From Kribbella italica (GTDB lineage: Bacteria > Actinomycetota > Actinomycetes > Propionibacteriales > Kribbellaceae): a DNA stretch of 64,000 nucleotides. The position numbers were made by a program, and so were the translations under genes. The first letter of the stretch is position 1; each line of letters starts with the position of its first letter. The notes under the pieces were generated by a model. That model had not been told where the DNA came from, did no database searches, and was given only the letters and a program-made list of their open reading frames with translations. Where the stretch lies: contig NZ_JACHMY010000001.1 of the NCBI RefSeq assembly GCF_014205135.1, positions 124,001 to 188,000 on the forward strand, written 5' to 3'. Positions 1,475-43,158 of the stretch are shown piece after piece.

Positions 1475-1531
1475 GCTGATCTTTCAGGGCTTCGAGCGGG
1501 CCGCTAGCCACGCTCACGCAGTACACAGTAC

Positions 1532-2982: not shown

Positions 2983-2998
2983 AGTGACGTACCTCCTG

Positions 2999-3009: not shown

Positions 3010-3028
3010 GTGATGTTCATGCGGCATT

Positions 3029-3056
3029 TCTATACCAGGGTGTGATGGTGTGTCAA
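3029..3056 (-). promoter_or_regulatory. Strong promoter of exonuclease operon
   Basis: Minus strand: consensus -35 TTGACA (3,056-3,051), 16-bp spacer, -10 TATAGA (3,034-3,029). The -35 and the following bases, TTGACACACCATCACA, recur exactly at 26,361-26,376 on the plus strand. This suggests paired leftward and rightward lytic promoters under the same control. Confidence 0.65.
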
Positions 3057-3066
3057 CTATGCGGAC

Positions 3067-3263
3067 GCGGATTGCAGTTTGTTGCAAATCCGCGGTTCCC
3101 CCCGCGCGACAGAAAAGGCCCCCAGCCACAAGCCGGGGGCCTCGGTGCCTCCGTCCCCCGGTTGTGACGGGAAACCTAGCAGTCGGAGGGATGTGACAGA
3201 TAGTCACTATTGGGGTTACTGGGGAGTTGTGATCTCTCTGTTATTGAACGTTCAAACGCAGAC
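3067..3263. other. Untranslated stretch between repressor gene and exonuclease promoter
   Basis: It holds a hairpin at about 3,067-3,093 (GCGGATT ... AATCCGC with a TGCA/TGCAA inner stem) and the repressor terminator at 3,116-3,142. An AT-richer stretch at 3,190-3,260 follows with no convincing gene. Confidence 0.4.
3116..3142 (-). terminator. Rho-independent terminator of the repressor gene
   Basis: 8-bp stem AGGCCCCC/GGGGGCCT with an 11-nt loop. Read on the minus strand it is followed by TTTT CTGT. It lies 120 nt after the repressor stop codon and isolates repressor transcription from the lytic promoter downstream. Confidence 0.7.
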
Positions 3264-3731
3264 CTAGGAGTCTCGCTTGTCCCGACTCCTTCGAGGCGTG
3301 GTCTTGCTCTCAGGCTCACGAATCAGGTCGTTGTCGATCCCCGGCCGGCGAGGAACGTAGAAGAATCCGCGCTCCGTGTCGGGGTCGTAATGAACCACAG
3401 TGCCGGTCTCGCGTCGCGTCTCCAGCCATCCGGGAAGTCGCTCAGCGTCACGCTCACTCAGCTCCATCCCGGCGCGCTGGCGGGCCACGGCGCGAAGGAG
3501 CGTTACGGCGTTCCGCCAGCGGTGCTCGTCCTTGATCTCCCACGGGATCAGGTCGTCGTCGCGCACCAGCCGCGCCTCGATCCCGTTCCGTCGACGGAAG
3601 TTCCCCCACATGGAGGGCACGGTCTCGATGCCGTACTTCTCTCTGTACTGCTCGACCATCCAATCGTAGGTTCGCCCCTCGTCGAACCAACGGATCACCT
3701 CAGCCTTGTCCTGGATTTTCGATGCCGGCAT
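3264..3731 (-). CDS. Immunity-repressor-like DNA-binding protein (L5/Bxb1-type layout)
   Basis: 155 aa, ATG at 3,731 behind GAGAGGGGG. N-terminal helix-turn-helix-like region at about residues 8-50 (AEVIRWFDEGRTYDW, then MWGNFRRRNGIEAR). Then comes an order of landmarks I recall from mycobacteriophage L5-family repressors: IPWEI with a downstream H, an LR-containing helix, MELSERD, LPGWLE, VVHYDP, and GFFYVPRRP near residue 130. Those repressors bind many asymmetric dispersed operators, which matches the GTGTGTTAGTG set in this element. It is a monocistronic gene with its own promoter and terminator, as expected for a lysogenic repressor. Assignment rests on remembered motif order, not a search. 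Confidence 0.6.
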   Translation of the reverse strand: MPASKIQDKAEVIRWFDEGRTYDWMVEQYREKYGIETVPSMWGNFRRRNGIEARLVRDDDLIPWEIKDEHRWRNAVTLLRAVARQRAGMELSERDAERLPGWLETRRETGTVVHYDPDTERGFFYVPRRPGIDNDLIREPESKTTPRRSRDKRDS

Positions 3732-3784
3732 TGGAGCCCCCTCTCGATGTCCTGCCCCGTCAATGGGGTTGTGTAGATGAGTCC

Positions 3785-3813
3785 ATAGTTGCCCAACTGA
3801 GACACAGTGTCAA
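3785..3813 (-). promoter_or_regulatory. Repressor promoter carrying 15-bp element shared with early control region
   Basis: Minus strand: -35 TTGACA (3,813-3,808), 17-bp spacer, -10 AACTAT (3,790-3,785). The spacer contains CTGTGTCTCAGTTGG (3,807-3,793), which recurs exactly at 26,388-26,402. No GTGTGTTAGTG copy lies here, consistent with the gene staying on in the lysogen. Confidence 0.5.
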
Positions 3814-3867
3814 GGTGTTACAGTTTAGGGACGTGGCGTACATCACGCCGAGATAGGAGCAGTAGCT

Positions 3868-4146
3868 ATGGAGATCGTCATCCAGGTGTGTGACGTGTGT
3901 GAGAAGGTGGGCAAGCCGGTGAAGCAGTACGGGGTCTCCGAGGATGACCGTGTCGCGAAGCCCGTCCTGTGCGCTGATGACGCCGCCCCGCTGGAGCGGT
4001 TCCTGCCGAAGGCGCCTGGGGGAAAGGTCGTCGCGGCAGCGAGGCCGGCGACGAAGCGGCCCGCAAAGAAGGCGGCGGCCCGCGGCGGTCGGCAGTCCGG
4101 GGTCATGACGATGGAAGAGATCGAAGCCCAGAAGCGCAAGAGCTGA
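3868..4146 (+). CDS. Small zinc-ribbon protein with basic tail, divergent from repressor
   Basis: 92 aa, ATG at 3,868 behind GATAGGAG. N-terminal CDVC (residues 8-11) and a later Cys around 35 could hold zinc. The C-terminal half is a Lys/Arg/Ala-rich tail (ATKRPAKKAAARGG) like nucleoid-binding tails in actinobacterial histone-like proteins. It is the only plus-strand gene in the left 27 kb and faces the late operon across a shared terminator. The position opposite the repressor suggests expression in the lysogen. Could be an Lsr2-like or superinfection-exclusion factor; unproven. Confidence 0.65.
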   Translation: MEIVIQVCDVCEKVGKPVKQYGVSEDDRVAKPVLCADDAAPLERFLPKAPGGKVVAAARPATKRPAKKAAARGGRQSGVMTMEEIEAQKRKS

Positions 4147-4157
4147 GCAACGACGAA

Positions 4158-4183
4158 AAGCCCCCGCCGTGAGGCGGGGGCTT
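4158..4183. terminator. Bidirectional terminator between convergent genes
   Basis: 11-bp perfect stem AAGCCCCCGCC/GGCGGGGGCTT with a 4-nt GTGA loop. Minus-strand reading ends GGGGGCTTTTCG. It closes both the plus-strand zinc-ribbon gene and possible opposing transcription near the lysis cassette. Confidence 0.8.
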
Positions 4184-4196
4184 CGTCATGTCAGGC

Positions 4197-4508
4197 TCAG
4201 TGGTTGATGCTGGCCTGGTCGTCCTTCAGGAAGGCCGGCAGGTAGCCGAGGTCTTCCAGCTTGTTCTTGACCTTGGAGATCAGGGTGGTCGCGGCTAGAA
4301 CCAGCCCGAAGACGTACGCCTCGCTTTCCAGGCTGACGCCGAACTCGTGCAGCATCGGCACGATGACGGCGATGACGGCGAGTACGCCGAGCGCCATGTC
4401 GATGCCGGTGCGAACGGCGCGGCGAGTCGAGGTCGAGGAGATCTTCTTCAGCACGGTGTTACCTCCGATGAGGGTGTCGGACAGGGTGGGCTTGCGGTGC
4501 TCGGCCAT
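4197..4508 (-). CDS. Phage holin
   Basis: 103 aa, ATG at 4,508 overlapping the endolysin stop by one base (TGATG). A charged N-terminus (AEHRKPTL) is followed by two hydrophobic segments at about residues 36-55 and 66-82. The tail is charged (SKVKNKLEDLGYLPAFLKDD). Size and position immediately after the endolysin fit a two-helix holin that would permeabilise the membrane for release of the endolysin. Confidence 0.75.
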   Translation of the reverse strand: MAEHRKPTLSDTLIGGNTVLKKISSTSTRRAVRTGIDMALGVLAVIAVIVPMLHEFGVSLESEAYVFGLVLAATTLISKVKNKLEDLGYLPAFLKDDQASINH

Positions 4509-5326
4509 CAGCCGTTGACCACGACGTGGTAGCCGTAGCGGGCCATGAGGGCGCCGGTCCGGGGACCGAAGACGCCATCGGCGGCGAGCTTGTTCTTGCG
4601 CTGGACGGCCTTGACCGCCTGGAGGACGAGCGCGTTGGCGCCGGTCCAGTTGATCCACTGCGGGTGGCTGGTCTTGTTGACCCAGGCGGCCTCGTGCTCG
4701 GCGGTGATGAAGTTCAGCCGGCGAGCCCACGCCATGAAGGCGCGGATGTCGAGCCAGGTGGCGTCGGCCGTGCGCATGTGGCCGCCCGGCTGGATCAAGC
4801 CGGCGCCGAACTTCAGGCTCCAGGTCACGATCGTCACGTCACGCTCGGGCGCAGAACTCGGCGGCTTGGTGGAGCCACCGCGGATCTTCCGGGCGACCGC
4901 CGCGACGCGCGCCTTGGAGGCGTTGATCTCGAAGTGCATCTCGTCCTTGCGGCCCGAGTAGTCGCCACCCCAGCGGATGGCGCCGTCGTACTCCTTCAGC
5001 TTCTGGCGGATCTTCGCCGCCTGCGCCGCGGTGAAGGTGTTGCGCGCGGCGAGCGGGTGGTCGACGGCGTTGGCGTCGGCCGCGGTGCCCGAGGCGTGGT
5101 TGCTCAGGTCGGTGCCGCCGCGGACCGGGCGCTCGGCGTAACCCCAGTCGTCGAAGATGCCGCCCTCGATGTCCTCGATGTTCTTGTCGAACCAGGCGAG
5201 GAAGTGGGTCAGCAGGAAGCCGGCATCGCCGCTCGCCAGGCGCAACTTGCGCGTAGTTCCGGGGATGGTCCAGCTCTTAGTCAGTGAGATGTCGTTGGCC
5301 GGCCAGCCGTTCTGGCTCTTGGGCAT
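4508..5326 (-). CDS. Endolysin: M15-type peptidase plus peptidoglycan-binding domain
   Basis: 272 aa. Residues ~60-150 form a VanY/M15 D-Ala-type peptidase: SNHASGTAADAN supplies the zinc-binding His/Asp pair and MHFEI supplies the later His. A linker (PPSSAPERD) leads to a C-terminal domain ending QRKNKLAADGVFGPRTG, typical of a PG_binding_1 repeat. It cleaves cell-wall peptides at lysis. The ATG at 5,326 follows an AGGTAC stretch. No signal peptide is seen, consistent with holin dependence. Confidence 0.85.
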   Translation of the reverse strand: MPKSQNGWPANDISLTKSWTIPGTTRKLRLASGDAGFLLTHFLAWFDKNIEDIEGGIFDDWGYAERPVRGGTDLSNHASGTAADANAVDHPLAARNTFTAAQAAKIRQKLKEYDGAIRWGGDYSGRKDEMHFEINASKARVAAVARKIRGGSTKPPSSAPERDVTIVTWSLKFGAGLIQPGGHMRTADATWLDIRAFMAWARRLNFITAEHEAAWVNKTSHPQWINWTGANALVLQAVKAVQRKNKLAADGVFGPRTGALMARYGYHVVVNG

Positions 5327-5370
5327 GAGTGCGTACCTCCAGGGTGGTGTGGGCAGTTCGGTACAGACGG

Positions 5371-5403
5371 AGGCCCCGGTGCCTCACTAGCACACCGGGG
5401 CCT
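5371..5403. terminator. Hairpin between tail-tip and lysis genes
   Basis: 11-bp stem AGGCCCCGGTG/CACCGGGGCCT with an 11-nt loop, 14 nt after the membrane coiled-coil gene in transcription order. No long T run follows, so it may only attenuate late transcription before the lysis genes. Confidence 0.5.
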
Positions 5404-5416
5404 GCGACATGGTTGG

Positions 5417-5749
5417 TCAGTTGGCGATCGAGCGGAGTTCCTCGCGGGCGTCGTCGAGCGCGGCCTGGATCGCATCGAGCCGTAGCTCGACGGCCATCCG
5501 GCGCTCGCGCTCCGCATCTCGGTCGGCGATGGCGTGGTCCCGGTCAGCCTCGGCCCGGTCGGCTCGGGCGGTCTCGGCGGCGAGCACTGCGGTGAGGGCT
5601 ACAACAGCCGTCTCCGCGCCGTTCACGATGATGCTGTCCCGTTCGACCGGGACCTTCTTCCGCGCCGTCCAGGCCGCAACCACGCCCGCTACCGCGGTGC
5701 CGGTGAGGAAGGGCGCGGCGAGCTGGATAGCCAGAGGGATCTCACTCAC
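5417..5749 (-). CDS. Membrane-anchored coiled-coil protein near lysis cassette
   Basis: 110 aa, GTG at 5,749 overlapping the previous stop (GTGA). Hydrophobic N-terminal segment at about residues 6-27, a second weaker one at 45-60, then a long charged helix (ETARADRAEADRDHAIADR) that reads as a coiled coil. Such proteins accompany actinophage lysis genes and could act as a spanin-like or holin-accessory factor. Role inferred from position only. Confidence 0.65.
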   Translation of the reverse strand: MSEIPLAIQLAAPFLTGTAVAGVVAAWTARKKVPVERDSIIVNGAETAVVALTAVLAAETARADRAEADRDHAIADRDAERERRMAVELRLDAIQAALDDAREELRSIAN

Positions 5750-6801
5750 GAGCCGACCCTCCGGAACGAGATCCGCTGGTACTCGTGGCCGGAGATCAGG
5801 TTGAGGTTGCCGGTCGAGGTCTGGCGGCAGGCCAGGATGACCTGGTCGTTGGCCGCGAGGCGGACCTCGCCGTTCAGCCGGACCGTGGTCCAGCCGATCT
5901 TGGCTGCGTCGCGGGAGTCGTAGTCGATGTAGTCGCCGTTGGGCGAGCCGTCGACCCGAGCCAGCCGCAGCTCGCGAGCTCCCGTGGTGTTGCTGTTGAA
6001 GGTCAGCGTCACGTCGTAGACGTAGCGACCCGCGGTCGGGAAGCTGAAGCGCGCGCTCTCGAAGGTGTAGCCGATGCCGCTCTGGCCGCCGTTGTCCATG
6101 CGCCAGTCGAGGATCTGCCACACGTCGTCGGGGATGCTGATGCCGCCGGCAACGCCGACACGCCACGCCTCCGAGCGCATGATGTACGGCTGGTTCTCCA
6201 GCGTGGACAGCCGAGCGAACACGTCGGCCGGCACGATGGTCGCCCAGGCCGAGCCGTTCCAGAACTCCCACTGGCCGATGGTGGTGTTGTAGCCCAGCCG
6301 GCCGTAGCGCGGCGAGCTCGGCCTGGTGGCCGTCGACCAGGGGCCAACGGTGCTGCCGAGGAAGAGGCGGTCGTCGGTGATCTTGGCGGGGTTCACGTTC
6401 ACATCGCCCGGCGAGATCAGGATCGTTGCCACCGGCATCTCGAAGATTCCGATGTCGGTCTGGTTGAGCGAGGGGACCGGGCCGCCGGCCGTGCCGGAGA
6501 TGACGACCGGGAGGATCGAGTTCGCGGCGGGGTCCAGGCGAAGGACCACGCGGTGGTACACCGGCGCCGAGCTGGCCGCCGGGATGGCGATGGGCTCGAC
6601 CGCGGTGTTCTGTGCGCCGTGGCCGCGGACCAGGGCGAAGCCCGGCTGGGCGGTGACGTTCATGCCGGACGCGGCGACGATCTTCCAGGCGGTGCCGCCG
6701 TAGGTGTCGGCGACGCCGGTCTGCTGGAGCTCACGGAAGAGGGTGGTGTACTGCCCCTCCGTGCTGTCCTGGTTGTCGAATGGGAAGGAGCTGATAGCCA
6801 C
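5746..6801 (-). CDS. Minor tail / receptor-binding protein
   Basis: 351 aa, ATG at 6,801. The N-terminal part (ISSFPFDNQDSTEGQY, then LFRELQQTGV) resembles the beginnings of tail-tip baseplate proteins. The middle contains WEFWNGSAW, a common phage tail-fibre signature. The C-terminal ~130 residues form a beta-sandwich with VWQILDWRMDN and FSFPTAGRYVYDV, similar to the C-terminus of the upstream tail protein. Likely surface-exposed and host-binding. Confidence 0.7.
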   Translation of the reverse strand: MAISSFPFDNQDSTEGQYTTLFRELQQTGVADTYGGTAWKIVAASGMNVTAQPGFALVRGHGAQNTAVEPIAIPAASSAPVYHRVVLRLDPAANSILPVVISGTAGGPVPSLNQTDIGIFEMPVATILISPGDVNVNPAKITDDRLFLGSTVGPWSTATRPSSPRYGRLGYNTTIGQWEFWNGSAWATIVPADVFARLSTLENQPYIMRSEAWRVGVAGGISIPDDVWQILDWRMDNGGQSGIGYTFESARFSFPTAGRYVYDVTLTFNSNTTGARELRLARVDGSPNGDYIDYDSRDAAKIGWTTVRLNGEVRLAANDQVILACRQTSTGNLNLISGHEYQRISFRRVGS

Positions 6802-6835
6802 TAGGGATCTCCAATGGGGCTGAAAATGTGAGGGG

Positions 6836-8470
6836 TTAGCGCCCCAGGTGCTCGATGGTGATGCGGGCGTAGGCGTCGCCGGGCACGAGCGTGAGCAGGC
6901 CGCCAGCGGACTGGAAGACCTGCACCCAGACGGTCTCGTTTGAGGCGAGGCGGATGGCGTCGGAGACGCTCAGCGCGGTGAAGCTGGTGGAGTTGCCCGG
7001 CAGCGACTGGTAGGCGAACATGCCCCTGGTCGAGGAGTGCAGCGCGATGTAGCGGTAGCCGACCGTGCCGCTCGGGACCGAGGGGAAGGTGACTCGCGCG
7101 CTCACCAGGTAGCGGCCCGGCACTCTGGTCGTGAACTCGCCGCCGCCAACGCTGAAGTTGTGGGGGATCAAGTCAGTGCCGGCCGGGTCTGCCGAGGAGT
7201 CTCGCTTGACGGTCCAGCGGAGCACCTGCCACGCATTGGGTGGGATGGCCGACGAGGCGGATGCCTTCAGGTTGGGCACAACCCACTCGGTGTACGGCCG
7301 GGTCGTCTCGACCCCGGTGTTCCGCTCGATCGCAGAGATCCTGCTCTCCACGCTGGAGACCCGGCTCGCCATCCCGTCGCCGAACTGCGTCGGGTCGCCG
7401 ATGGTGACGCCCACGCGGAAGCCGGTGGCGTCCGCCTTCAGGACGTAGCCGGTTACGTCGACCTTGAGCTCCTGGCCGTCGACCGTGACTGCGACCCGGT
7501 CGCCCAGGTTCCAGTCCGTGCCGAAGGTGGCGGCGCTGTCGTCGGACGGGACGGTCTGGGCCGAGACTGCGCTGAAGCCAGCGTCGTCCAGGGCTTCCTT
7601 GCCGGCGGCGGCCAGCTCGGCGGGATCGTCCTCCGTGCGCTGGTCGATGAACCGCTCGATGCGCCGACCCCACTGGGCCTGCGCTGCGACCGACGCCGCG
7701 GTGGTGTACTCGGAGAGCTGGCGCGTCTCGTCGACACCCTGGCCGCCAACGATCGCGACCGTGAGCCCCGGTGGGGAGGTGGCAACCTTCTGGCTGGCAA
7801 GGGATCCGTTGCGCGCGTCGAGCCGGATGATGTCCGACTTGTCGCTCACTCGGTAGGTCTCGAAGACCAGGCCGGCGCCGCGCTGCACGACCCTGAATCC
7901 GAGCCCGAGCCCCTCCTGGATCGCCAGCTCGGCGAGCAGTTCTCCGAGGGGCTGGAAGTTCGGGGCCTTGGTCACGTACGCCCCGCGGCCGAGGTCCGTG
8001 CCCGTGGTCAGGCCGGCCTTCTTCCGGGCCGCGGTGGCGAAGGAGCCGATGTTCACGTTGACGTACGCGTGCATCAGCGTCTCGGCGAAGCCCGAGCGCC
8101 TGTCGGCCTTGTATCGCTGGGCGTTGACCGCCCGGCTTGGGTCGGGGTAGGCCAGCGTGTCCGCCAGGATGACGGTGTCGGTCACGCCCTCGATCGTCAG
8201 GGTGCCGCCGGGGTCGGTGGTCGATGTCACCTCGGTGGGCGTGACCATCGGCCCGGAGAACAGCACGTCCTCCGGGCCGTCCACGATGAGGCCCGAGCCG
8301 GGCGTTCGGAGGATCGCCGCGAGCGGGTGATCGGCTCGGAGGCTGAGCGTCCAGCTACCGACGTTGTTGTGGTCGACGGATGCCGTGAGGTTCAGCTCGG
8401 CGGGGACGATGATGCCTTGGCGAACGAGCGACTTGTCCCGGACGGTGACAGTGATGTCGTCGAGCTTCAA
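6836..8470 (-). CDS. Tail-tip protein, Gp37/endopeptidase-like, with duplicated C-terminal sandwich
   Basis: 544 aa, start at 8,470 directly after the distal tail gene stop (8,471). Residues ~1-380 resemble siphophage Gp37-like tail proteins (tail-hub fold): DHPLAAILRTPGSGL, then TDTVILADTLAYPDP, then LGELLAELAIQEG. A coiled coil (SSVESRISAIERNTG) leads to a C-terminal beta-sandwich with AWQVLRWTV and FTTRVPGRYLVSA, paralogous to the end of the next gene. It probably links the tail tube to the fibres. Confidence 0.75.
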   Translation of the reverse strand: MKLDDITVTVRDKSLVRQGIIVPAELNLTASVDHNNVGSWTLSLRADHPLAAILRTPGSGLIVDGPEDVLFSGPMVTPTEVTSTTDPGGTLTIEGVTDTVILADTLAYPDPSRAVNAQRYKADRRSGFAETLMHAYVNVNIGSFATAARKKAGLTTGTDLGRGAYVTKAPNFQPLGELLAELAIQEGLGLGFRVVQRGAGLVFETYRVSDKSDIIRLDARNGSLASQKVATSPPGLTVAIVGGQGVDETRQLSEYTTAASVAAQAQWGRRIERFIDQRTEDDPAELAAAGKEALDDAGFSAVSAQTVPSDDSAATFGTDWNLGDRVAVTVDGQELKVDVTGYVLKADATGFRVGVTIGDPTQFGDGMASRVSSVESRISAIERNTGVETTRPYTEWVVPNLKASASSAIPPNAWQVLRWTVKRDSSADPAGTDLIPHNFSVGGGEFTTRVPGRYLVSARVTFPSVPSGTVGYRYIALHSSTRGMFAYQSLPGNSTSFTALSVSDAIRLASNETVWVQVFQSAGGLLTLVPGDAYARITIEHLGR

Positions 8471-9370
8471 TCAGACCACCATCCACTTCCGGTCTTGCCA
8501 GGTCACCCGGATGCGGGCCTTGGCGGAATCGACCACGTCCATGGAGACGTGGGCAGTACTGGTGCCGGGGGCAACGGTCCACATTCGTGGAGCCGCACCG
8601 ACGCTGGCGAAGCGGTTGGCTCCAGTGGAGTCCCAGACGCGCCCCGACTTGGTGTCGATGTAGAGGGTCACGCCATCGGCGAGCGTCCCGTTCCAGGCGA
8701 TCCTCTGGCCGCTGGGCGAGATCGCCTCGAAGTTCGTGCCGGAGGTGATCTCCCATAGCGGGTAGGCCGGAGCGTCGCCGCCGTTGACCAGGGTCACGTC
8801 GCCGAAGGCTTGCGAGGAGCGGACCTTCAGCGCGGTGAGTGGGCCGTTGAGGAGTCCTCGGCCGGCGCCCTCGGTGACGATGGTCAGGCCGCCGTCGCGG
8901 GAGCTGATCCAGTACGGATCGCCCGCCCTGAAGGTGATGACCATCATGAGGTCGCGCTCGCCGATGGTGTCGGCTCCGTAGACGTAGCTGCCACCGCCGA
9001 CGCGGACGACATTGCAGTACCAGTAGGTGCCATCGGCCTCTACGAGCCGCAGCTCGCACTCGCCGGACACCATGATGGCCAGCCGGGAGACGAGGGCCTT
9101 CAGCCCCTCGCGATCCTTGCCGTCGAAGTACAAGGGCAGGTCGATGTCGCGGGGCAGGACCCGCTGCCCGCGGAAGGTCGCGCCGTCGCCTGCGCCCTCG
9201 ATCCACTGCACCGAGACCGGCGGCAGGCCGAGACCGGTTACCCCGGTCAGGGCCTGCGCGCCGCGCATCTCGGGCGGGATCAAGTCGTACACAGGGTCGT
9301 CCTCCATCAGGAGGGAATCCAGGTCGAGCAGATCCCCTGTGACGTTGGACTTGAGTACGAGCTTGACCAT
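8471..9370 (-). CDS. Distal tail protein
   Basis: 299 aa, ATG at 9,370 overlapping the tape measure stop by one base (TAATG). Typical actinophage Dit-like sequence: GVTGLGLPPVSVQW near residue 43, LPLYFDGKDREGL, MMVITFRAGDPYW. The C-terminal half has LPNG-type strands (MWTVAPGTSTA). Location right after the tape measure is the canonical place for the distal tail/hub protein. Confidence 0.85.
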   Translation of the reverse strand: MVKLVLKSNVTGDLLDLDSLLMEDDPVYDLIPPEMRGAQALTGVTGLGLPPVSVQWIEGAGDGATFRGQRVLPRDIDLPLYFDGKDREGLKALVSRLAIMVSGECELRLVEADGTYWYCNVVRVGGGSYVYGADTIGERDLMMVITFRAGDPYWISSRDGGLTIVTEGAGRGLLNGPLTALKVRSSQAFGDVTLVNGGDAPAYPLWEITSGTNFEAISPSGQRIAWNGTLADGVTLYIDTKSGRVWDSTGANRFASVGAAPRMWTVAPGTSTAHVSMDVVDSAKARIRVTWQDRKWMVV

Positions 9371-27874: not shown

Positions 27875-28051
27875 GTGCGGATCCTGTGTGCCCTGGCCAT
27901 CGCCGTCGGGATGCTCTCGGCGAGCTGGAACTACTACCAGCCGGACAGTCAGTGCGGTCACGCCGCATCGCTGGAGCCCGGACAGATGAGCTTCTGTCTC
28001 GACGCCGACCTCGATACGTCGGGCGTCGTGGACATGCGTGACGGCCGGTGA
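27875..28051 (+). CDS. Small secreted or membrane-anchored early protein (58 aa)
   Basis: GTG at 27,875, one base after the previous stop. N-terminal hydrophobic segment (RILCALAIAVGMLSASW) like a signal peptide or membrane anchor, then a short polar tail with two cysteines (SQCGHAASLE, SFCLDADL) that could pair outside the cell. Superinfection exclusion proteins often look like this; unproven. The first minihelix follows 7 nt later. Confidence 0.5.
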   Translation: MRILCALAIAVGMLSASWNYYQPDSQCGHAASLEPGQMSFCLDADLDTSGVVDMRDGR

Positions 28052-28058: not shown

Positions 28059-28099
28059 GCCAGGACAGGCAGGCAACGGGGTTCGAGTCCCCGGCTGGC
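28059..28099 (+). ncRNA. tRNA-like minihelix element 1
   Basis: Outer stem GCCAG/CTGGC, 12-nt linker containing GG, then T arm CGGGG-TTCGAGT-CCCCG plus one mismatched position. The 3' strand from loop to end of outer stem is 11 nt. Located between the stop of the preceding small gene and the next gene. No D or anticodon arm. Confidence 0.6.
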
Positions 28100-28181
28100 A
28101 CTCAGACAGACGTACGGGGATCAAGGAGGCGTCTGTCCAGCGGTAATCAATCCGCAGAGCGGAAGAAAGGAATGGGTCGAG

Positions 28182-28286
28182 ATGGGTCGAGCGAAGCGAA
28201 ATCGCAGGGTCCGACCGAAGCGTAAAGGCTTGTCACCGTGCCGCATCCTGCGGGACTCGGTGGGGGATGCGGCGACGTATCGGTGA
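28182..28286 (+). CDS. Very small basic protein (34 aa)
   Basis: ATG at 28,182 with AAAGGA upstream. Arg/Lys-rich first half (GRAKRNRRVRPKRKG), then CRILRDSVGD. Likely nucleic-acid binding if real; the upstream extension of the frame passes through the minihelix and is discarded. Confidence 0.4.
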   Translation: MGRAKRNRRVRPKRKGLSPCRILRDSVGDAATYR

Positions 28287-28582
28287 CCGAGCACACGGCG
28301 AAACCACGTGGCCTCCCGCCAGGAGTCGCGTGGTCCGGGACAGGGTGGCGCCCTGCCCGCTGAGGATGCCAAGCCAACTGGGGGTGAGCTCCGATGTGAT
28401 CCGCGGCTGAATCCGTGAATCCGAACGGCGACTCGTGAAACCAGGGACAACTTCACAAGCACCTACCCCCGAGCCCGATCGTTGCGATCGCTGGCCGGGA
28501 CACAGGGAAGAGACGTAGGCACGTGCGAGCCAGGCTGACGCAATCGCACATACCAATCCCACTTGAGATGAGAGAGATCCGC
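28287..28582 (+). other. Structured untranslated region upstream of clamp gene
   Basis: 296 nt with no convincing gene but several small hairpins in series: CCACG...CGTGG enclosing CTCC/GGAG (28,305-28,334 region), CAGGG-TGGCG-CCCTG, and the palindrome CGATCG-TTG-CGATCG near 28,480. Candidate noncoding RNA or translational control region of the sliding clamp. Confidence 0.35.
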
Positions 28583-29191
28583 ATGACTGTCACGCTGGAA
28601 AACGTTCGGACGCTGGTCCCCGCTACCCACCTTCGGGATGCACTGAGTGCGGCGCTGTTGAGTGCGGGGAAGGATGTGTTCCTTCCGATCCTGGCCGCGG
28701 TGCAGGTTGAGAAGTGTGGAGGGGAGTTGATCTTCCGGGCCACTGATCGATACCGCCTGACTCGGGTCACGATCACGCTCAACTCAGAGGATGCGCCGTC
28801 GCCGGACTGGATGGTCACACTCTCTGCGGCGGACGTGAAGCAGCTCGTCAACGCACTCCCCAAGCCGAAGAAGGGGCAGGCGCCGGCGCCTGTGGCGCTG
28901 ACCGTCGAGGACGGCATCCTGCACGCTGACACGGGCCAGGCTGAGCTCCGACTCAAGCCGCTCGACGGCGACTTCCCGAAGGTCGACGGGATCATCCCGA
29001 CCGAGATCAACCCGGTCGACGAGATCGGCTTCAATCCGAAGTACCTCGCCGACCTGGGCAAGATGCCGGGCTTCGACGGGAATCAGTCCGTCAAGCTCCG
29101 CTTCAACGGTCCCAAGGCGATGCGTGCCGAGTGGGGTAGCGACGACGTGCAGTTCGTCTACCTCCTGATGCCGGTGCGCCTCAACGGCTAG
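28583..29191 (+). CDS. DNA polymerase sliding clamp (beta)-like protein, two-domain length
   Basis: 202 aa, ATG at 28,583 behind GAGATGAGAGAG. Similar to the last two domains of DnaN: LPILAAVQVEKCGG, then FRATDRYRLTRVTITL (the ATDxxRL clamp motif) and the C-terminal end YLLMPVRLNG matching the VLMPMR terminus of bacterial beta clamps. Bacterial clamps are ~370 aa with three domains. At 202 aa this one could form a trimer, like PCNA. It would tether a phage or host polymerase during replication. Confidence 0.7.
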   Translation: MTVTLENVRTLVPATHLRDALSAALLSAGKDVFLPILAAVQVEKCGGELIFRATDRYRLTRVTITLNSEDAPSPDWMVTLSAADVKQLVNALPKPKKGQAPAPVALTVEDGILHADTGQAELRLKPLDGDFPKVDGIIPTEINPVDEIGFNPKYLADLGKMPGFDGNQSVKLRFNGPKAMRAEWGSDDVQFVYLLMPVRLNG

Positions 29192-29202
29192 ATGTGTTAG
29201 TA
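29192..29202 (+). promoter_or_regulatory. Operator-like motif, two-mismatch copy
   Basis: ATGTGTTAGTA directly after the clamp stop codon and 10 bp before minihelix 2. Same orientation as transcription. Confidence 0.35.
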
Positions 29203-29212
29203 GTGCTTCACC

Positions 29213-29252
29213 GCCCGAACGGTTCAAGCTCCGGTTCGATTCCGGAGCGGGC
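29213..29252 (+). ncRNA. tRNA-like minihelix element 2
   Basis: Outer stem GCCCG/CGGGC, 11-nt linker with GG at the fourth and fifth positions, T arm CTCCGG-TTCGATT-CCGGAG (6 bp). 3' strand length 11 nt, as in the other four elements. Between the clamp gene and ardA. Confidence 0.65.
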
Positions 29253-29266
29253 ACTCGCAGAACCTA

Positions 29267-29277
29267 GTGTGTTAGTG
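29267..29277 (+). promoter_or_regulatory. Operator motif, perfect copy in ardA leader
   Basis: GTGTGTTAGTG ends 8 bp before the ArdA start codon and overlaps its probable ribosome site GTGAGGG. In this position it would act as a roadblock or translational element. Confidence 0.55.
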
Positions 29278-29285
29278 AGGGAATC

Positions 29286-29825
29286 ATGAGTGACGCGATG
29301 GTGTGGGTGGGCTGCCTCGCCTGCTACAACGGCGGCGACTTGGTCGGCGAGTGGTTCGACGCGGGAGACGCGCCGACCGAGACGACCGGTGAGAACGAGT
29401 TCGATGCTCGGGTCAAGGTGCCGAGTGAGCACATCACCGAGGCTCACGAGGAGCTTTGGGTGATGGACACGGACGGCATGCCGGAGAGCCGGGAGATGTC
29501 GCCCGACGAGGCGAACCGGATCGGCGCCTTCCTGAACGAGATCGAGAGCCACGATCGCCTGACGACCGAGGCCGTGCGGATGTACGCGCAATGGGCAGGC
29601 GTTGCGTTCGTCGACGTGGATCTGCGGAGGTGCGACGACGCATACCGGGGCGAGTGGGACTCCGAGGTGGACTTCGCGCAGGACTATGCGGACGACTTCC
29701 TCGACAGGGAACAGCCCTGGCCGCTGAATCACATCGACTGGGATGCGGCGACCGAGGATTTCATGCAGGACTACTGGTCCGGAGAGGACCCCTCCGGCAT
29801 GGTCCACATCTGGGACGCGCACTGA
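29286..29825 (+). CDS. ardA: ArdA-type antirestriction protein
   Basis: 179 aa, ATG at 29,286. Begins with the ArdA signature WVGCLACYNGGDLVGEWFDAG; the middle has HEELWVMDTDG; the end FDxx-type acidic helix reads HIDWDAATEDFMQDYW. Strongly acidic throughout, as expected for a DNA mimic that binds type I restriction enzymes and blocks them when phage DNA enters or is unmodified. Early-operon location fits that timing. Followed by another acidic protein with ATGA overlap. Confidence 0.85.
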   Translation: MSDAMVWVGCLACYNGGDLVGEWFDAGDAPTETTGENEFDARVKVPSEHITEAHEELWVMDTDGMPESREMSPDEANRIGAFLNEIESHDRLTTEAVRMYAQWAGVAFVDVDLRRCDDAYRGEWDSEVDFAQDYADDFLDREQPWPLNHIDWDAATEDFMQDYWSGEDPSGMVHIWDAH

Positions 29826-30166
29826 TGAGCGCCGTGATCGAGAAGGCCAGCCCGCTTGAGATCGGGTGCTGGATCGAGGGACACCGCGGCCGGTACGTCA
29901 CCTCCGAGCTGGTGTGGAGGGCTGCGAATCGTGGCTTCGAGATCGACGACGACGACCGGCGTGCGCTCGAAGCGTACGAGGCCGGCGACGAGTCGATCGT
30001 GTGGGACGGCCAGGACTGCGACGTCTACGACTGGGTCGTTGATCTCGCGGATGACGCCGAGGTGTGGATGAACGAGAACGTCGCGCCGGAGGGTCACGCC
30101 TTCGGCTGGCACGACTGCGAGTTCTTCCTCTGGACCGACGAGGAGTGGGCCCAGAACGCCTACTGA
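29825..30166 (+). CDS. Acidic early protein coupled to ArdA
   Basis: 113 aa, ATG overlapping the ardA stop. Very acidic: DDDDRRALEAYEAGDE, CDVYDWVVDLADDAEVW and HDCEFFLWTDEEWAQ. Sequence style like ArdA but no recognised domain. Could be a second DNA mimic or an ArdA partner; inference from charge and coupling. Minihelix 3 follows 7 nt after the stop. Confidence 0.65.
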   Translation: MSAVIEKASPLEIGCWIEGHRGRYVTSELVWRAANRGFEIDDDDRRALEAYEAGDESIVWDGQDCDVYDWVVDLADDAEVWMNENVAPEGHAFGWHDCEFFLWTDEEWAQNAY

Positions 30167-30173
30167 GCAACCA

Positions 30174-30214
30174 GCCCTGAAGGGAAGTCACCCCGGTTCG
30201 AGTCCGGGGAGGGC
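30174..30214 (+). ncRNA. tRNA-like minihelix element 3
   Basis: Outer stem GCCCT/AGGGC, 12-nt linker beginning GAAGG, T arm CCCCGG-TTCGAGT-CCGGGG (6 bp, perfect). Stacked helix of 11 bp. It is the best-paired of the five. Confidence 0.7.
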
Positions 30215-30251
30215 ACTCGCACCACCCCAACGAGAGAGACGAGATCCACTC

Positions 30252-30602
30252 ATGACGACCACCGTCACAGAGCCCATGATGTTCAACGAGATGCGCGTCA
30301 AGCGCGTCGAGGTGTCCGTCCTGGCGAAGTTCCAGGCGTACGTCGCAGTCACCTTGGATGACGACGGCAACGAGATGATCGAGCTGCCCGAGGGTCGCAT
30401 CGGGTACGAGATCGCCGACGCGATCGAGTACTACGCCGCGCACACGTCCGACGCCCAAGATGGCGACGCACTGGTGGCGCTGGTCGGTGGCGGGATTGGG
30501 AACACGGTCGAGATCGAGGTTGCCGCATGGGAAGTCGAGAGCGACGACACCTCCGCTGACGTGCAGGATGCGGTCGACCACACGGAAGCGTGGAAGTCGT
30601 GA
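30252..30602 (+). CDS. Hypothetical early protein
   Basis: 116 aa, ATG at 30,252 behind GAGAGAGACGAG. Beta-strand start (VKRVEVSVLAKFQAYVAVTLDD) then a helix GYEIADAIEYYAAHTSDA and an acidic C-terminus. Coupled to the next gene (GTGA). No family recognised. Confidence 0.65.
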   Translation: MTTTVTEPMMFNEMRVKRVEVSVLAKFQAYVAVTLDDDGNEMIELPEGRIGYEIADAIEYYAAHTSDAQDGDALVALVGGGIGNTVEIEVAAWEVESDDTSADVQDAVDHTEAWKS

Positions 30603-30970
30603 CCCGCCCGCTGGCCGACGTGCTCGATCACTACGACGGGCTGGCCAAGAGCCGCAAGTACCTGGCCGAGCTCTACGAGCTGGCGGAGACCGGAGAGGCT
30701 GGCTACGAGGAGGCAGACGAGCTGTCGGCAGACCTCAACGAAGACCTCCGCGACATCGCTGACGACCTGGTCGCACTGCTCCGCAATCCTGTCGTCGCGC
30801 CCACTCCAGAGACGCCGGAGCATGAGCTCTACGCGGTCTACACCGTCGATGGTGAGTACGACAGCGCGCAGCTCTACCGCGATGTCGATGCCGCCGAGGA
30901 GGTGGCCGAGATCCTCTGTCGCGACCGCGGCGAGGGCTACGCCTGGACCGACAGCGTCACCGTTCACTGA
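30599..30970 (+). CDS. Hypothetical acidic helical early protein
   Basis: 123 aa, GTG at 30,599 in the GTGA overlap. Helical acidic N-terminal half (LADVLDHYDGLAKSRKYLAE, ADLNEDLRDIADDLVALL), then a beta part YAVYTVDGEYDSAQLYRDVD and helix AAEEVAEILCRDRG. Function unknown. Minihelix 4 follows 7 nt after the stop. Confidence 0.65.
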   Translation: MTRPLADVLDHYDGLAKSRKYLAELYELAETGEAGYEEADELSADLNEDLRDIADDLVALLRNPVVAPTPETPEHELYAVYTVDGEYDSAQLYRDVDAAEEVAEILCRDRGEGYAWTDSVTVH

Positions 30971-30977
30971 TTCACCA

Positions 30978-31018
30978 GCCTGACTGGCAGACACGCGGGG
31001 TTCGAGTCCCCGGCAGGC
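30978..31018 (+). ncRNA. tRNA-like minihelix element 4
   Basis: Outer stem GCCTG/CAGGC, 12-nt linker beginning ACTGG, T arm CGGGG-TTCGAGT-CCCCG with one G-G mismatch at the sixth position. Same 11-nt 3' strand. Outer stem identical to element 5. Confidence 0.6.
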
Positions 31019-31066
31019 GCTCCGGCGTACAGACCAGTGCGCCATCCCCTGAATGGAGACACACCA

Positions 31067-31159
31067 ATGAAGCACACCACGCGCAAGACCACCCCCGAGG
31101 CCAAGCGCGAGACGCTGCGCCGTCGCCAGGTCCGTGCGATCAAGACCCTGGTGAAGTGA
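31067..31159 (+). CDS. Very small basic protein (30 aa)
   Basis: ATG at 31,067. Almost entirely Lys/Arg/Thr (KHTTRKTTPEAKRETLRRRQ); the stop overlaps the next start (TGATG). Probably a nucleic-acid or regulator-binding peptide if expressed. Confidence 0.45.
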   Translation: MKHTTRKTTPEAKRETLRRRQVRAIKTLVK

Positions 31160-31332
31160 TGAGCGACCGAGCTGTGGTCGAGGAGATCATCCCCCCTCGC
31201 CCGACGCTGAAGGAGGAGGCCGAGCGCCTCCGCTCGTACTGGGAGCGGCACGGCAACAACCCCGAGGCGGTCGCCAAGTGGGCCGTGACGGACATGGTCG
31301 GAATCCTGAACTACATCATCGAAGGGGAATGA
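31159..31332 (+). CDS. Small helical early protein (57 aa)
   Basis: ATG at 31,159 overlapping the previous stop. Helical: TLKEEAERLRSYWERHGN then AVAKWAVTDMVGILNYI. Followed by the next gene one base later. No family recognised. Confidence 0.5.
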   Translation: MSDRAVVEEIIPPRPTLKEEAERLRSYWERHGNNPEAVAKWAVTDMVGILNYIIEGE

Positions 31333-31333
31333 C

Positions 31334-31900
31334 GTGAGCGACTACGCGCAGGGTCTGATCGAGGAGACCGGAGACTTCCGGGTCCGAGTGGTGTACGACG
31401 AGAGTCAGTCGGAGTTCCCCGACTTCGTGCAGTCGGCAGTGATCTCGATGAACGACCGCTACCTGTCCTACAACGACACCCGCGGACTCGGCGCGCTGGT
31501 CCGGCGGGAGTGGTCGGAGCGACTGCGCGACTTCGACGTGATCGACCGGTGGCTGAAGATCTTCCACGGCGTGCGGGCGGTGTCCCAGGTGGACACGCGA
31601 GACGCCACCTACCTCGTGCTGCTGACCGAGGACGCGCGGTGGTACTACGGCACGCCCGAGGATCGAGTGCAGGAGTGCGCGGACGGCGACGCCGAGACGT
31701 TCATGCAGTGGGCCGAGGGTGACATCTACGGCTACGTCGTGGAGGAGCGCGCCACTTGGCGTCGCGAGGGTGGCGACGAGGAGACGATGGAGACGTGGGA
31801 GGAAGTCGACTCCCTGTGGGACCTCTACGGCCACGACTACGCCTCAACCGAGGCGCGCGAGGCGCTGACCTCGTGGGCCGGAGATGCGGCGGCGGCATGA
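31334..31900 (+). CDS. Hypothetical acidic early protein (188 aa)
   Basis: GTG at 31,334. Acidic and Trp/Tyr-rich (REWSERLRDFDVIDRWLKIF, DARWYYGTPEDRVQEC, YGYVVEERATW). The composition recalls DNA-mimic antirestriction proteins but I recognise no family. ATGA overlap with the next gene. Confidence 0.65.
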   Translation: MSDYAQGLIEETGDFRVRVVYDESQSEFPDFVQSAVISMNDRYLSYNDTRGLGALVRREWSERLRDFDVIDRWLKIFHGVRAVSQVDTRDATYLVLLTEDARWYYGTPEDRVQECADGDAETFMQWAEGDIYGYVVEERATWRREGGDEETMETWEEVDSLWDLYGHDYASTEAREALTSWAGDAAAA

Positions 31901-32139
31901 GTCGGGCGATCTACTCGATGAAGCCTGCCGCGCGGACCGAGTACCTGAAGTCCAGGGTCGGGGAGTGGGTGGTCGTGATCTATGGGCGCCACTACCGACG
32001 AGATGCGCACTGCAAGATCCTCGGCGTTGCGCCCTCGCTGACCAACTCGTTCGCCGATCAGCTCGTGGTGCAGAGCCACTACGGCGGCGACATGTTCGTC
32101 CTCTCGTCGGCAGAGCTGATCCGATTCGAGGAGAGCTGA
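31897..32139 (+). CDS. Hypothetical early protein (80 aa)
   Basis: ATG at 31,897. Beta-rich small domain: GEWVVVIYGRHYRRDAHC, SFADQLVVQSHYGGDMFVL, ending SSAELIRFEES. Looks like a small SH3-like barrel; speculative. One base precedes the XRE gene. Confidence 0.55.
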   Translation: MSRAIYSMKPAARTEYLKSRVGEWVVVIYGRHYRRDAHCKILGVAPSLTNSFADQLVVQSHYGGDMFVLSSAELIRFEES

Positions 32140-32140
32140 C

Positions 32141-32458
32141 GTGATCGCCGCACCCGAGGCCGAGGCCACCTTCGCACTGCGGATGAGGCAGAGGCGCGAC
32201 GCGCTCGGCATCAGCCAGAAGGTCCTCGCGCGGAAGGTGTCGCTGGAGCGCGGCTGGACCGAGCAGGCGACCATCGCCCGCATCGAGACGGGCAAGCGGG
32301 GCGTCAGCCTGGCCGACGCCATCGCCTTGGCTCAAGCACTGAGCTGCGAGCTCGGCGACCTGCTTACTCCGGTGAAGTGTCAAGCATGCAAGGACAATCC
32401 GCCCGCTGGCTACTCGTGCCAGACGTGCGGGACATCGAGCGAGAGGAGCACAGCGTGA
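32141..32458 (+). CDS. XRE-family helix-turn-helix regulator with C-terminal zinc ribbon
   Basis: 105 aa, GTG at 32,141. HTH at residues ~8-70: MRQRRDALGISQKVLARKVS, then TIARIETGKRGVSLADAIALAQAL, standard Cro/C1-type. The last 30 residues carry two CxxC pairs (CQACKDNPPAGYSC, CQTCG), an unusual zinc-ribbon addition. Within the early operon it could be a Cro-like switch opposing the left-end repressor. The helix loop has extra residues (ERGWTEQ) compared with minimal XRE domains. Confidence 0.75.
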   Translation: MIAAPEAEATFALRMRQRRDALGISQKVLARKVSLERGWTEQATIARIETGKRGVSLADAIALAQALSCELGDLLTPVKCQACKDNPPAGYSCQTCGTSSERSTA

Positions 32459-32835
32459 CCACCTTCACCCTGAAGTACGACGAGGTACGCACCGCGATGT
32501 TGGAGCTGGCGGCCGAGCGCCCGGACTTCAACTACCACGAGAGCGACGACTTCAAGCAGGTTCAGCACTGCGTCTACGTGAACCCCAAGACGAAGGCTCC
32601 GAGCTGCCTGGTCGCCGCGGTCGTGGATCGAGTGCACGGACCCGAGGCGCTAGCACTCCTGGCCGACGCCGAAGACGTGCACCCGGATTCGTTCGGCGTT
32701 GGCGGTCAGGGCTGGCCGAGAGAGCTGGAGATTCCGGAGGGACGGACGGCCGGTCTCCTCTCTGTCGGTCAGGACCTGCAAGACCAGGGATACACGTGGG
32801 GCTACGCAGTGGCCGAGGCCACTCGCGACTACTGA
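32455..32835 (+). CDS. Hypothetical early protein (126 aa)
   Basis: GTG at 32,455 in the GTGA overlap. Contains YDEVRTAMLELAAERPDFNY, CVYVNPKTKAPSCLVAAVV and a C-terminal helix LLSVGQDLQDQGYTWGYAV. Similar small proteins occur in actinophage early operons; function unknown. Minihelix 5 follows 7 nt after the stop. Confidence 0.65.
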   Translation: MTTFTLKYDEVRTAMLELAAERPDFNYHESDDFKQVQHCVYVNPKTKAPSCLVAAVVDRVHGPEALALLADAEDVHPDSFGVGGQGWPRELEIPEGRTAGLLSVGQDLQDQGYTWGYAVAEATRDY

Positions 32836-32842
32836 TCCACCA

Positions 32843-32881
32843 GCCTGAATGGTTGCACCTCGGTTCGATTCCGGGGCAGGC
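32843..32881 (+). ncRNA. tRNA-like minihelix element 5
   Basis: Outer stem GCCTG/CAGGC, 10-nt linker beginning AATGG, T arm CCTCGG-TTCGATT-CCGGGG (6 bp including T-G). Preceded by the same CCACCA sequence context as element 4 (TTCACCA). 3' strand 11 nt. Confidence 0.65.
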
Positions 32882-32919
32882 GCTCAAGCACGACCACCAC
32901 CAGACATGGGAGACCGAGC

Positions 32920-41433: not shown

Positions 41434-41474
41434 CCGGGCGGCGGTGATCCACCACGACATGAAACGGGGGAGTG

Positions 41475-42695
41475 ATGGCAGGGAAGGCGCTCGGGCTCGG
41501 AGAGCACGGAGAGATTGAGGCTATCCCGCAGAAGCGGGACGGGGCCGGCAAGTGGAAGCGGGCGGTACACCACCGCTCCGCTGAACGCTGGCGTGCCCGA
41601 GTCTACTTCCGTGGCTTCGATGGCATCACCCGAGAGATCTCCCGCTTCGGCAAGACCCGCCGGGCAGCCATCGAGAACGTCGAGGATGCCCTCAAGGAAC
41701 AGCCAAGCCTGGGCGCCGCACTGGAGGGCATGACGCCATCAACGCCTGTCCCGCTGGCCGGAGAGCTCTGGCTTGAGCAGATCAAGCGCCCCGAGTCGAA
41801 GCTCTCGGCCGAGACGATCGACGACTACGAGCGTGCGTTCAAGAATCATGTGAAGGGCAAGTCGTCCACTCTGCGGGGTCTGACCCTGAAGCAGGCCAAC
41901 GATCCCCAGAGGCTGCGCCTGTTCCTCCAGGAGGTGGCAGACCGACGCGGCACTGGTGCCGCCAAGATGGCCAGGCAGGTGATGTCGGGCATCCTCTGGA
42001 TGGCGGTCGACGACGGCGTATTCACGGTGAACGCGACGAGGATGGTCAGGCCGGTCAAGGCGAAGGTCAAGAAGCAGACCGTGCGCCAGGCTCAGCACGA
42101 CCACCAGCGTGCCTACACCGCCGAAGAGGCCGATGCGGTCATGGCGTACGCCGACAAGCTCGCCATCGACGAGGCCGCCAACCCACGGACGCTGCGGAAG
42201 TGGGCGACGACGGCCGACCTCAACGCATTCATGAAGGGCACGGGCGCTCGCATCGGCGAGGCTCGCGGCATGAGCTGGGAGGATGTCGACCTTCTCACGG
42301 GCTGGGCACTCATCCTCGGCACCAAGACCGAGGGGTCTAGGCGCGCGGTCAGGATGCCGAGCTGGCTCCTCGAACGGATACGAGAGCGAGGCGCTCGGTA
42401 CGGGGTCGAGGGCCTGATCTTCCCATCACCCCATCAGACCGACGATCCCTGGAAGCCCTGGGATCAGTCGAACTGCAACAAGGCGGTCCGGCACATACTC
42501 GACGGCGCGGAGATGCCGTGGGCCATCCCGCACACCTGGCGTCGCACTGTCGCGAAGCGACTGGAGGAGGCTGGGTGGGATCTGTCCGACATCGCGGACC
42601 AGCTCGGCCACGGCGATCCATCCATGACGGCCGACCACTACCTGGAGCGCGATCTCATGGGACGAGGCGACTCGCGCGCCGCCGATATCCTCTAG
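41475..42695 (+). CDS. int: Tyrosine integrase
   Basis: 406 aa, ATG at 41,475 (GTG at 41,472 also possible). Arm-binding N-terminus (residues ~20-65: WRARVYFRGFDGITREISRFG), core-binding domain to ~200, then the catalytic domain with Arg in TGARIGEARGMSWEDVD (~259), HTWRR (~354-357) and Tyr in TADHYLERD (~388). Plus strand, last prophage gene, adjacent to the attachment site, so it integrates at the tRNA-Arg gene described here. Confidence 0.95.
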   Translation: MAGKALGLGEHGEIEAIPQKRDGAGKWKRAVHHRSAERWRARVYFRGFDGITREISRFGKTRRAAIENVEDALKEQPSLGAALEGMTPSTPVPLAGELWLEQIKRPESKLSAETIDDYERAFKNHVKGKSSTLRGLTLKQANDPQRLRLFLQEVADRRGTGAAKMARQVMSGILWMAVDDGVFTVNATRMVRPVKAKVKKQTVRQAQHDHQRAYTAEEADAVMAYADKLAIDEAANPRTLRKWATTADLNAFMKGTGARIGEARGMSWEDVDLLTGWALILGTKTEGSRRAVRMPSWLLERIRERGARYGVEGLIFPSPHQTDDPWKPWDQSNCNKAVRHILDGAEMPWAIPHTWRRTVAKRLEEAGWDLSDIADQLGHGDPSMTADHYLERDLMGRGDSRAADIL

Positions 42696-42912: not shown

Positions 42913-42968
<56 letters not shown>

Positions 42969-43158
42969 CCGTGCCTGCGGCACGGGGAAGAGTGTCTCAG
43001 ATCGGGGGCCGATCACGCTCGTGGGTTCCCGGTGCGGCGTCACGGGGCGTACGCCGTACGGGGACAGCGGGTGGATAAGTACAGCCTTGTCGTTCCATCC
43101 CGGTAACGCCGAGTGGCCGGTTCTGCCGTGCTGACGGGACTCCAACTAGGCTGCGGTC

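Follow-up and report, generated by a model that had tools for sequence, protein, structure and literature searches.

A 64,000-nucleotide stretch of the Kribbella italica genome (positions 124,001 to 188,000 of contig NZ_JACHMY010000001.1, here called the window) carries, between positions 28,059 and 32,881, five minihelices that resemble the upper half of a tRNA, each following a stop codon. This raises the question of whether such elements are debris and coincidence or an RNA family maintained by selection and, if they are a family, what they do between genes. The original prediction, made from the window alone, described minihelices of tRNA-like form, with a GG like that of the D loop, in a phage early operon and offered three ideas about their function: cut sites for RNase P or RNase Z, decoys for tRNA-cutting nucleases, and substrates of an RNA ligase encoded in the same operon. 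Our analysis supports the minihelices and their setting, a rightward non-structural prophage operon, and extends them to a wide family. That this is a real family built on the tRNA upper half and held under selection as RNA is, in our judgment, close to certain.

Extent, structure and covariation of the family

A covariance model, R1, was trained on 57 elements, of which the window contributed one (29,213). At an expectation value (E) of at most 1e-3, R1 matched at least 69 IMG/VR loci, made up of 16 of the 59 loci of a first pattern scan and 53 of 100 loci taken from a second. The second scan comprised 118 loci (L070-L187), and the 100 given to R1 were L070-L161 and eight later loci that showed elements; L183, L184, L185 and L187 were left out of the run although the geometry scan showed elements in them. 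Pattern and geometry scans of IMG/VR found contigs with several copies each, whose stems differ and still pair. Single records hold up to 15 copies and one locus holds 12, while the whole record of the phage Rabbitrun holds one. The covariance-model search of phage genomes, which the original prediction had suggested as its check, returned many homologues with conserved geometry and compensatory stem changes.

Of 153 R1 hits, 150 were aligned and the three weakest (window element 3 and the hits in L050 and L060) were dropped. In another alignment, standard pairs filled 99.5% of cells, both sides had changed in 12 of 13 pairs, and the covariation score was 0.94, versus 0.20 in shuffles, although this stem covariation is partly built in, since the alignment rows were chosen for pairing stems. 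The linker between the outer and inner stems shows couplings of its own, and neither linker 2:8 nor linker 9 with loop position 60 was a selection criterion for the 136 rows in which they were counted (GG at linker 4-5 was). The 2:8 pair is CG in 57 rows, AT in 36, GC in 35, TA in 6, GT in 1 and AC in 1 (n=136), that is, four pair types with 134 of 136 rows Watson-Crick; the 9:60 pair is AT in 106, GC in 25, GT in 3, TT in 1 and CT in 1 (n=136). A mutual-information scan of all columns ranked 2:8 fourth, among the helix pairs, and also recovered 9:60, along with a weaker link between linker 6-7 and loop 59. These unselected couplings speak against degenerate tRNA genes or chance as a full explanation. 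Energy folding of the five window elements gave weak signals (z from -0.37 to -1.78), and in copies 1 and 4 another fold than the proposed one has the lowest energy. Folding energies by themselves lend little support; it is covariation that carries the case.

In its typical form, an element consists of A(-1), an outer stem of 5 base pairs (bp), the linker A1 N2 Y3 G4 G5 C6 A7 N8 R9 C10 A11, a 6-bp inner stem, the loop TTCGAG(T/C) and then R73-C74. The original prediction had the outer stem right; the inner one usually has 6 bp, so that 11 bp (5+6) are stacked in most copies, and some copies have 6+6. Its account of the linker also needs a correction: within the family the linker is structured, with position 2 pairing with 8. 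Given the couplings 2:8 and 9:60, we read the linker as a one-pair D hairpin with the loop YGGCA, whose next base pairs with the T loop, and the linker would map onto tRNA positions A14-N15-Y16-G18-G19-Y20-A21 and N48. The loop is TTCGAGT or TTCGAGC in 180 of 199 elements, a set that represents 270 R1 hits minus repeats and copies that the geometry scan could not place, and that leans slightly toward 2:8 because R1 models 2:8 as a pair. Linker tables cover the 142 elements with an 11-nucleotide (nt) linker; G4-G5 is present in 142 of 142, GG there being a filter for that set. Subtypes combine GGTT linkers with TTCGATT, as in window elements 2 and 5, or GGTC linkers with TTCGACT. Copies within one phage have different stems and share little sequence.

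The five window elements all lie on the plus strand. Element 1 (28059..28099) has its outer stem at 28059-28063/28095-28099, a 12-nt linker at 28064-28075, its inner stem at 28077-28081/28089-28093 and the T loop TTCGAGT at 28082-28088, 7 nt past a TGA at 28049-28051; R1 matched it at E 2.6e-7, in an alignment that starts from 28062 with the outer stem shifted. Element 2 (29213..29252) has its outer stem at 29213-29217/29248-29252, an 11-nt linker, its inner stem at 29229-29234/29242-29247 and the loop TTCGATT at 29235-29241, and the stop of a DnaN-like gene lies 21 nt upstream; its E of 8.7e-11 is that of a member of the training set. Element 3 (30174..30214), the weakest of the five copies (E 4.4e-5), has its outer stem at 30174-30178/30210-30214, a 12-nt linker, its inner stem at 30191-30196/30204-30209 and the loop TTCGAGT at 30197-30203, with a TGA (30164-30166) 7 nt upstream. 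Element 4 (30978..31018) has its outer stem at 30978-30982/31014-31018, a 12-nt linker, its inner stem at 30996-31000/31008-31012 and the loop TTCGAGT at 31001-31007, again 7 nt past a TGA (30968-30970); it scores E 1.9e-13, and the best blastn place of 31 phage records falls here. Element 5 (32843..32881; E 1.7e-10) has its outer stem at 32843-32847/32877-32881, a 10-nt linker, its inner stem at 32858-32863/32871-32876 and the loop TTCGATT at 32864-32870, 7 nt past a TGA at 32833-32835. The R73-C74-N75 flanks are ACT at 28100-28102, 29253-29255 and 30215-30217, and GCT at 31019-31021 and 32882-32884.

The sequences, coordinates, outer stems and TTCGANT loops first given for these copies were all reproduced, as were the distances of 7, 21, 7, 7 and 7 nt from the stop codon of the upstream open reading frame (ORF) to the element; all five have the 11-nt 3' strand and the linker GG, and none has an anticodon arm. 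The statement that they have no CCA needs amending: an encoded CCA is absent, but the end is not neutral, since a conserved R73-C74 follows the outer stem. Because only element 2 was in the training set, elements 1, 3, 4 and 5 are independent tests of R1. In the window, R1 found the five elements at E 1.9e-13 to 4.4e-5 and two further matches, both T-arm fragments (E 0.026 and 0.11), and across the 8.9-Mb host genome it returned the same five and no other full-length copy at E <= 0.1. Among the other plus-strand TTCGANT motifs of the window, one has a 5-bp stem and belongs to the tRNA-Arg at 42,740; a minus-strand motif at 24,693 has a 6-bp stem, and the stems of the remaining motifs have 0-2 bp.

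Beyond IMG/VR, R1 found full-length elements in 10 of the 15 named phages of which stretches were searched (Endor1, Lorelei, Papyrus, MrMiyagi, Konstantine, LittleE, Rabbitrun, ObLaDi, xhp1 and PhillyPhilly) and none in the searched stretches of Axy11, Fryberger, Estes, RemusLoopin and Auxilium. An RNA ligase was the reason for including RemusLoopin and Auxilium, and known repeats were the reason for including Estes; in the stretches searched, the blast matches of Axy11 and Fryberger were T-arm fragments only. With one element as query, blastn matched 604 places in 170 phage records, a count that includes some duplicate records and matches not all verified, and 39 of 40 rows among the blastn matches listed overlapped no annotated feature. 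In two low-GC members, L108 and L141, a Mu-type transposase gene lies nearby. The L108 transposase has low-identity matches in phages of Bacteroides, Porphyromonas and Flavobacterium (28% among the matches listed). The element is thus carried by many phages of Actinobacteria and, judging from these neighboring genes, probably by some whose hosts are of the Bacteroides type.

In cellular genomes the element is rare, and we therefore take it to be phage borne. With the own genome counted in both cases, R1 matched 2 of 38 genomes in the genus (E <= 1e-3) and 3 of 396 in a draw from the phylum (E <= 1e-4, with stricter filters), counts on which we rejected a host housekeeping RNA. Among the matches listed from a pattern scan of a genome collection, few loci were kept by geometry; two of these, L278 and L293, match R1, and L293 is a training row. 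A plasmid collection gave no match for one 56-base query.

The window itself is part of an 8.9-Mb single-contig genome. Genes for the terminase large subunit and portal lie on the minus strand at 19.4-22.6 kb, and a tyrosine integrase gene (41,472-42,695) adjoins the tRNA-Arg at 42,740, an arrangement from which we infer a prophage. The element-bearing rightward genes encode, among others, an ArdA anti-restriction protein, a helix-turn-helix protein and a DnaN-like clamp, with a dGTP pyrophosphohydrolase and the RNA ligase farther along, and this gene content suggests an early operon. By eye, the minus strand at ~42944-42993, just past the tRNA-Arg on the integrase side, resembles the 5' half of a tRNA, and ARAGORN makes no gene call there. 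An ARAGORN call at 60748-60841 on the minus strand, for a tRNA of unknown type whose anticodon has two letters, is probably false.

Placement between genes

If the elements act on messages, their position relative to genes should be informative. After repeats and hits less than 200 nt from the start of a locus had been removed from the 270 hits, 226 unique contexts remained, in 175 of which the element lies 3-25 nt past a stop closing an ORF of at least 50 codons, versus 9% in an opposite-strand control. The commonest spacing, 6-8 nt after the stop, accounts for 102 of the 226. Spacing to the next start is looser, with a median of 43 nt and a 5-95% range of 24-84. Annotated coding sequences (CDSs) of four phages give a similar picture: among 26 R1 hits with E <= 0.0012, 23 lie 5-15 nt after a stop, two lie 115 and 134 nt after one and one overlaps its stop codon, and the next CDS starts 12-172 nt past the element.

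The gaps of individual phages are filled with some regularity. In the Papyrus stretch, all 11 gaps of at least 50 nt between annotated genes hold exactly one element. Endor1 has elements in 8 of 10 such gaps within 883-5957, the two empty ones measuring 57 and 62 nt, and the 11 such gaps of MrMiyagi 4110-8982 hold an R1 hit in six cases, a tRNA-like variant in four and a plain hairpin in one. As a separate observation, gene gaps of Endor1 (L068 3309-3367, 5565-5628 and 7711-7771) contain TGTGACAGTG repeats, which are possibly R4-type stoperators as in related phages; stoperators are reported in the intergenic regions of phiScoe phages in the accessible text of PMC10276819.

A spacing of 6-8 nt is close to that at which downstream structures touch a ribosome at a stop codon. 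It is therefore conceivable that the elements are a termination or translation device acting on the ribosome stopped 6-8 nt upstream, by readthrough, recycling or reinitiation, and the 102 contexts at that spacing favor the idea. In-frame open codons, however, have a median of 24 versus 21 and 21 in the other frames (P 0.06), an extension not clearly longer, on which we rejected stop-codon readthrough. The next start falls in frames 0, 1 and 2 in 57, 43 and 62 of 162 cases, and copies without an upstream stop exist. We consider a ribosome device quite improbable. An intrinsic terminator was also rejected, as no U-run follows the element: T occurs in 18 of 199 elements at position 76 and in 15-23 of 199 at positions 77-80.

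Alternatively, released minihelices could serve as a sponge that occupies RNase P, RNase Z, the CCA enzyme, T-arm modifying enzymes or a defense nuclease. Consistent with such a decoy, a phage can carry many copies (15 in one record, 12 in one locus), and the tRNA elbow is what these proteins read. Placement points instead to a local role, with mostly one element per gap after stops, as in all 11 Papyrus gaps, and single-copy phages such as Rabbitrun exist. On balance, we regard a decoy as improbable. For the narrower version put forward originally, in which the mimics distract tRNA-cutting nucleases, the lack of an anticodon arm together with the one-per-gap, post-stop placement counts against the idea. 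The proposed link to the RNA ligase fares no better: RemusLoopin and Auxilium have a homologous ligase and no elements in the stretches searched (39.8 of 41.4 kb and 30.8 of 49.4 kb, respectively), and Streptomyces phage records with a match to the element region number 29, versus 9 for the ligase.

Kinship with tRNA and candidate processing enzymes

With tRNA (RF00005) the element has in common the TTCGANT T stem-loop, the D-loop-like A-N-Y-G-G-C-A, stacked stems and N73-C74. It differs in lacking an anticodon arm, in a D arm of one pair, in a length of about 40 nt, in usually having no encoded CCA and in a stack that is mostly 5+6 bp rather than 7+5. ARAGORN called no tRNA at elements in the window and the stretches searched, and Rfam 15 gave no covariance-model match at elements in the window and three phage stretches, so the family is missed by both. 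The 3' flank has C74 in 185 of 199 elements and T75 in 116 of 199. We compared it with 50 unique host tRNAs, drawn from 78 ARAGORN calls with at least 6 of 7 acceptor pairs required; the CCA-less genes among those kept (L323-L372) have C74 in 39 of 39, which agrees with the element flank. Positions 75-76 vary in elements and host tRNAs alike, with different preferences.

Intermediate forms occur in MrMiyagi (L320). Where its gaps lack a strong R1 hit, they contain a degenerate copy (6341-6385), a minihelix variant (8486-8525), a three-armed version (7716-7779) and a many-armed version followed by ACCA (8818-8914), and neither ARAGORN nor Rfam calls either of the last two. Because these multi-armed forms occupy the same kind of slot, we take the tRNA upper half to be the constant part. 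The forms are graded from many-armed to minimal, and descent from tRNA genes may be traceable. Such relatives make tRNA descent plausible and so favor the explanation that the elements are degenerate tRNA genes or chance. Against that explanation stand the covariation, the multiplicity, the placement and the fact that ARAGORN and Rfam see no tRNA at elements in the stretches searched, and we find it scarcely credible.

What reads a tRNA upper half? This part of tRNA is what RNase P, RNase Z and the CCA-adding enzyme measure, independently of primary sequence (PMC4919913, accessible text), which fits stems that change freely. According to the available part of PMC11143913, RNase P cuts phage M3 RNA, C4 RNA, T4 gene 32 mRNA and other mRNAs. 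Since these enzymes gauge the elbow and stack, and RNase P cuts phage RNAs and mRNAs, we favor cut or end marks: RNase P, RNase Z or both may read the elements as signals for intercistronic processing or for 3' ends, a proposal for which we see the chances as evenly balanced. Cut sites for these two enzymes are also the best of the three ideas first offered, cleavage itself being a supposition drawn from the anatomy.

The mechanism we propose begins with the copied tRNA upper half. An acceptor/T stack of 11-12 bp is joined by a T loop and by a miniature D hairpin, and the GG of this hairpin would dock into the T loop. One or both of two host enzymes, RNase P acting 5' of G1 and RNase Z acting behind R73, would use the elbow, the stack and R73-C74 as recognition features and sever the polycistronic phage transcript at the element; the resulting mRNAs would be shorter and would bear a compact tRNA-like cap at one end. 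The anatomy of an RNase Z substrate, a T arm and acceptor stack without CCA, appears to fit the elements. RNase P uses the 3' RCC and N-1, the RCC being read by the RNase P RNA (PMC12710915, accessible text). The host has an RNase P RNA with a GGGUAGGC stretch, which in our reading holds L15; of the RCC that is read by GGU of RNase P RNA, the elements keep R73-C74 and not C75. The tight link to the upstream stop and the looser one to the next start make the 3' end of the upstream message seem to be what matters, which suggests that RNase Z or a 3' cap suits the data somewhat better than RNase P alone.

Several observations weigh against a role for the tRNA-maturation enzymes. The stack is 11 bp in most elements versus 12 in tRNA, and C75 is rare (17 of 199 elements). 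A(-1) is found in 134 of 175 elements versus 7 of 50 host tRNAs, which sets the 5' flank apart from that of host pre-tRNAs. In 51 of the 226 contexts the element is not 3-25 nt after a stop of the kind counted, and the Endor1 leader before the first early gene has a 6+6-bp look-alike, found by the geometry scan and not by R1. In LittleE (L376 2866-4505), two elements stand on each side of a two-gene cassette opposite the structural operon. This last arrangement would also suit a DNA-level element, such as a recombination site or gene-cassette boundary, but copies within a phage share little sequence, placement is strand specific and the tertiary couplings make sense as RNA, leaving a DNA element very improbable.

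The MrMiyagi gap at L320 4631-4708 holds a plain GAAA-capped hairpin where its neighbors hold the mini-tRNA element, and for this reason the tRNA shape may not be essential. The elements could then be structural 3'-end stabilizers, compact folds that block exonucleases after cutting or termination elsewhere, with no part for tRNA enzymes. Elements set close behind the upstream stop, at a more variable distance from the next start, agree with this explanation too, as do the plain stem-loops seen by eye in gene gaps of the cluster M phage Estes (L321 20840-26460), where a slot of this kind is put to an analogous use. Yet for a stabilizer a plain hairpin would suffice, and the T loop, the GG, linker 2:8, 9:60 and C74 are conserved; we think it rather unlikely. 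Taking the processing proposal at its fullest, the elements would make up a structured viral RNA class that is new: mini-tRNAs of 40 nt, each with a one-pair D hairpin and contacts from linker to T loop, which serve phages of probably two bacterial phyla as intercistronic marks and draft essential host tRNA-maturation enzymes to cut, cap or stabilize mRNA one gene at a time. We put this somewhat short of an even chance.

Comparison with known systems

The original prediction knew of no described family of this form, and we found none either, in Rfam 15 and in literature drawn mostly from outside subscription journals and preprints. The accessible text of the Endor1 paper (PMC7650747) and that of the phiScoe paper (PMC10276819) do not mention such elements, and within these sources the family seems undescribed. 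Cluster M mycobacteriophages have CR3/CR4 repeats with upstream stem-loops between genes (PMC7953290, available part). These are different, R1 giving just short T-arm-like fragments in the 28.6-kb Estes stretch.

The known RNase P substrates (M3 RNA, C4 RNA, T4 gene 32 mRNA and polycistronic mRNAs; PMC11143913, available part) are likewise phage or operon RNAs. Unlike them, as far as a comparison through Rfam scans alone can tell, the elements form a repeated intercistronic family with a T loop and D-loop GG. Among early operons, that of phage T7 has RNase III sites, long hairpins that act as processing signals between genes. These also sit in early-operon gaps, but they are long hairpins read by RNase III.

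Should RNase P or RNase Z indeed be recruited, the elements would provide natural substrates of 40 nt on which to study the way these enzymes measure tRNA, a compact operon-splitting tool in Streptomyces and Mycobacterium, and a handle on the gene-by-gene mRNA ends of actinophages. A further likeness by description is to the t-elements of plant mitochondria and to tRNA punctuation, in which tRNA-shaped elements between genes mark processing sites. Those systems belong to other organisms, and if RNase P or RNase Z is recruited here, the elements would be a phage counterpart of tRNA punctuation.

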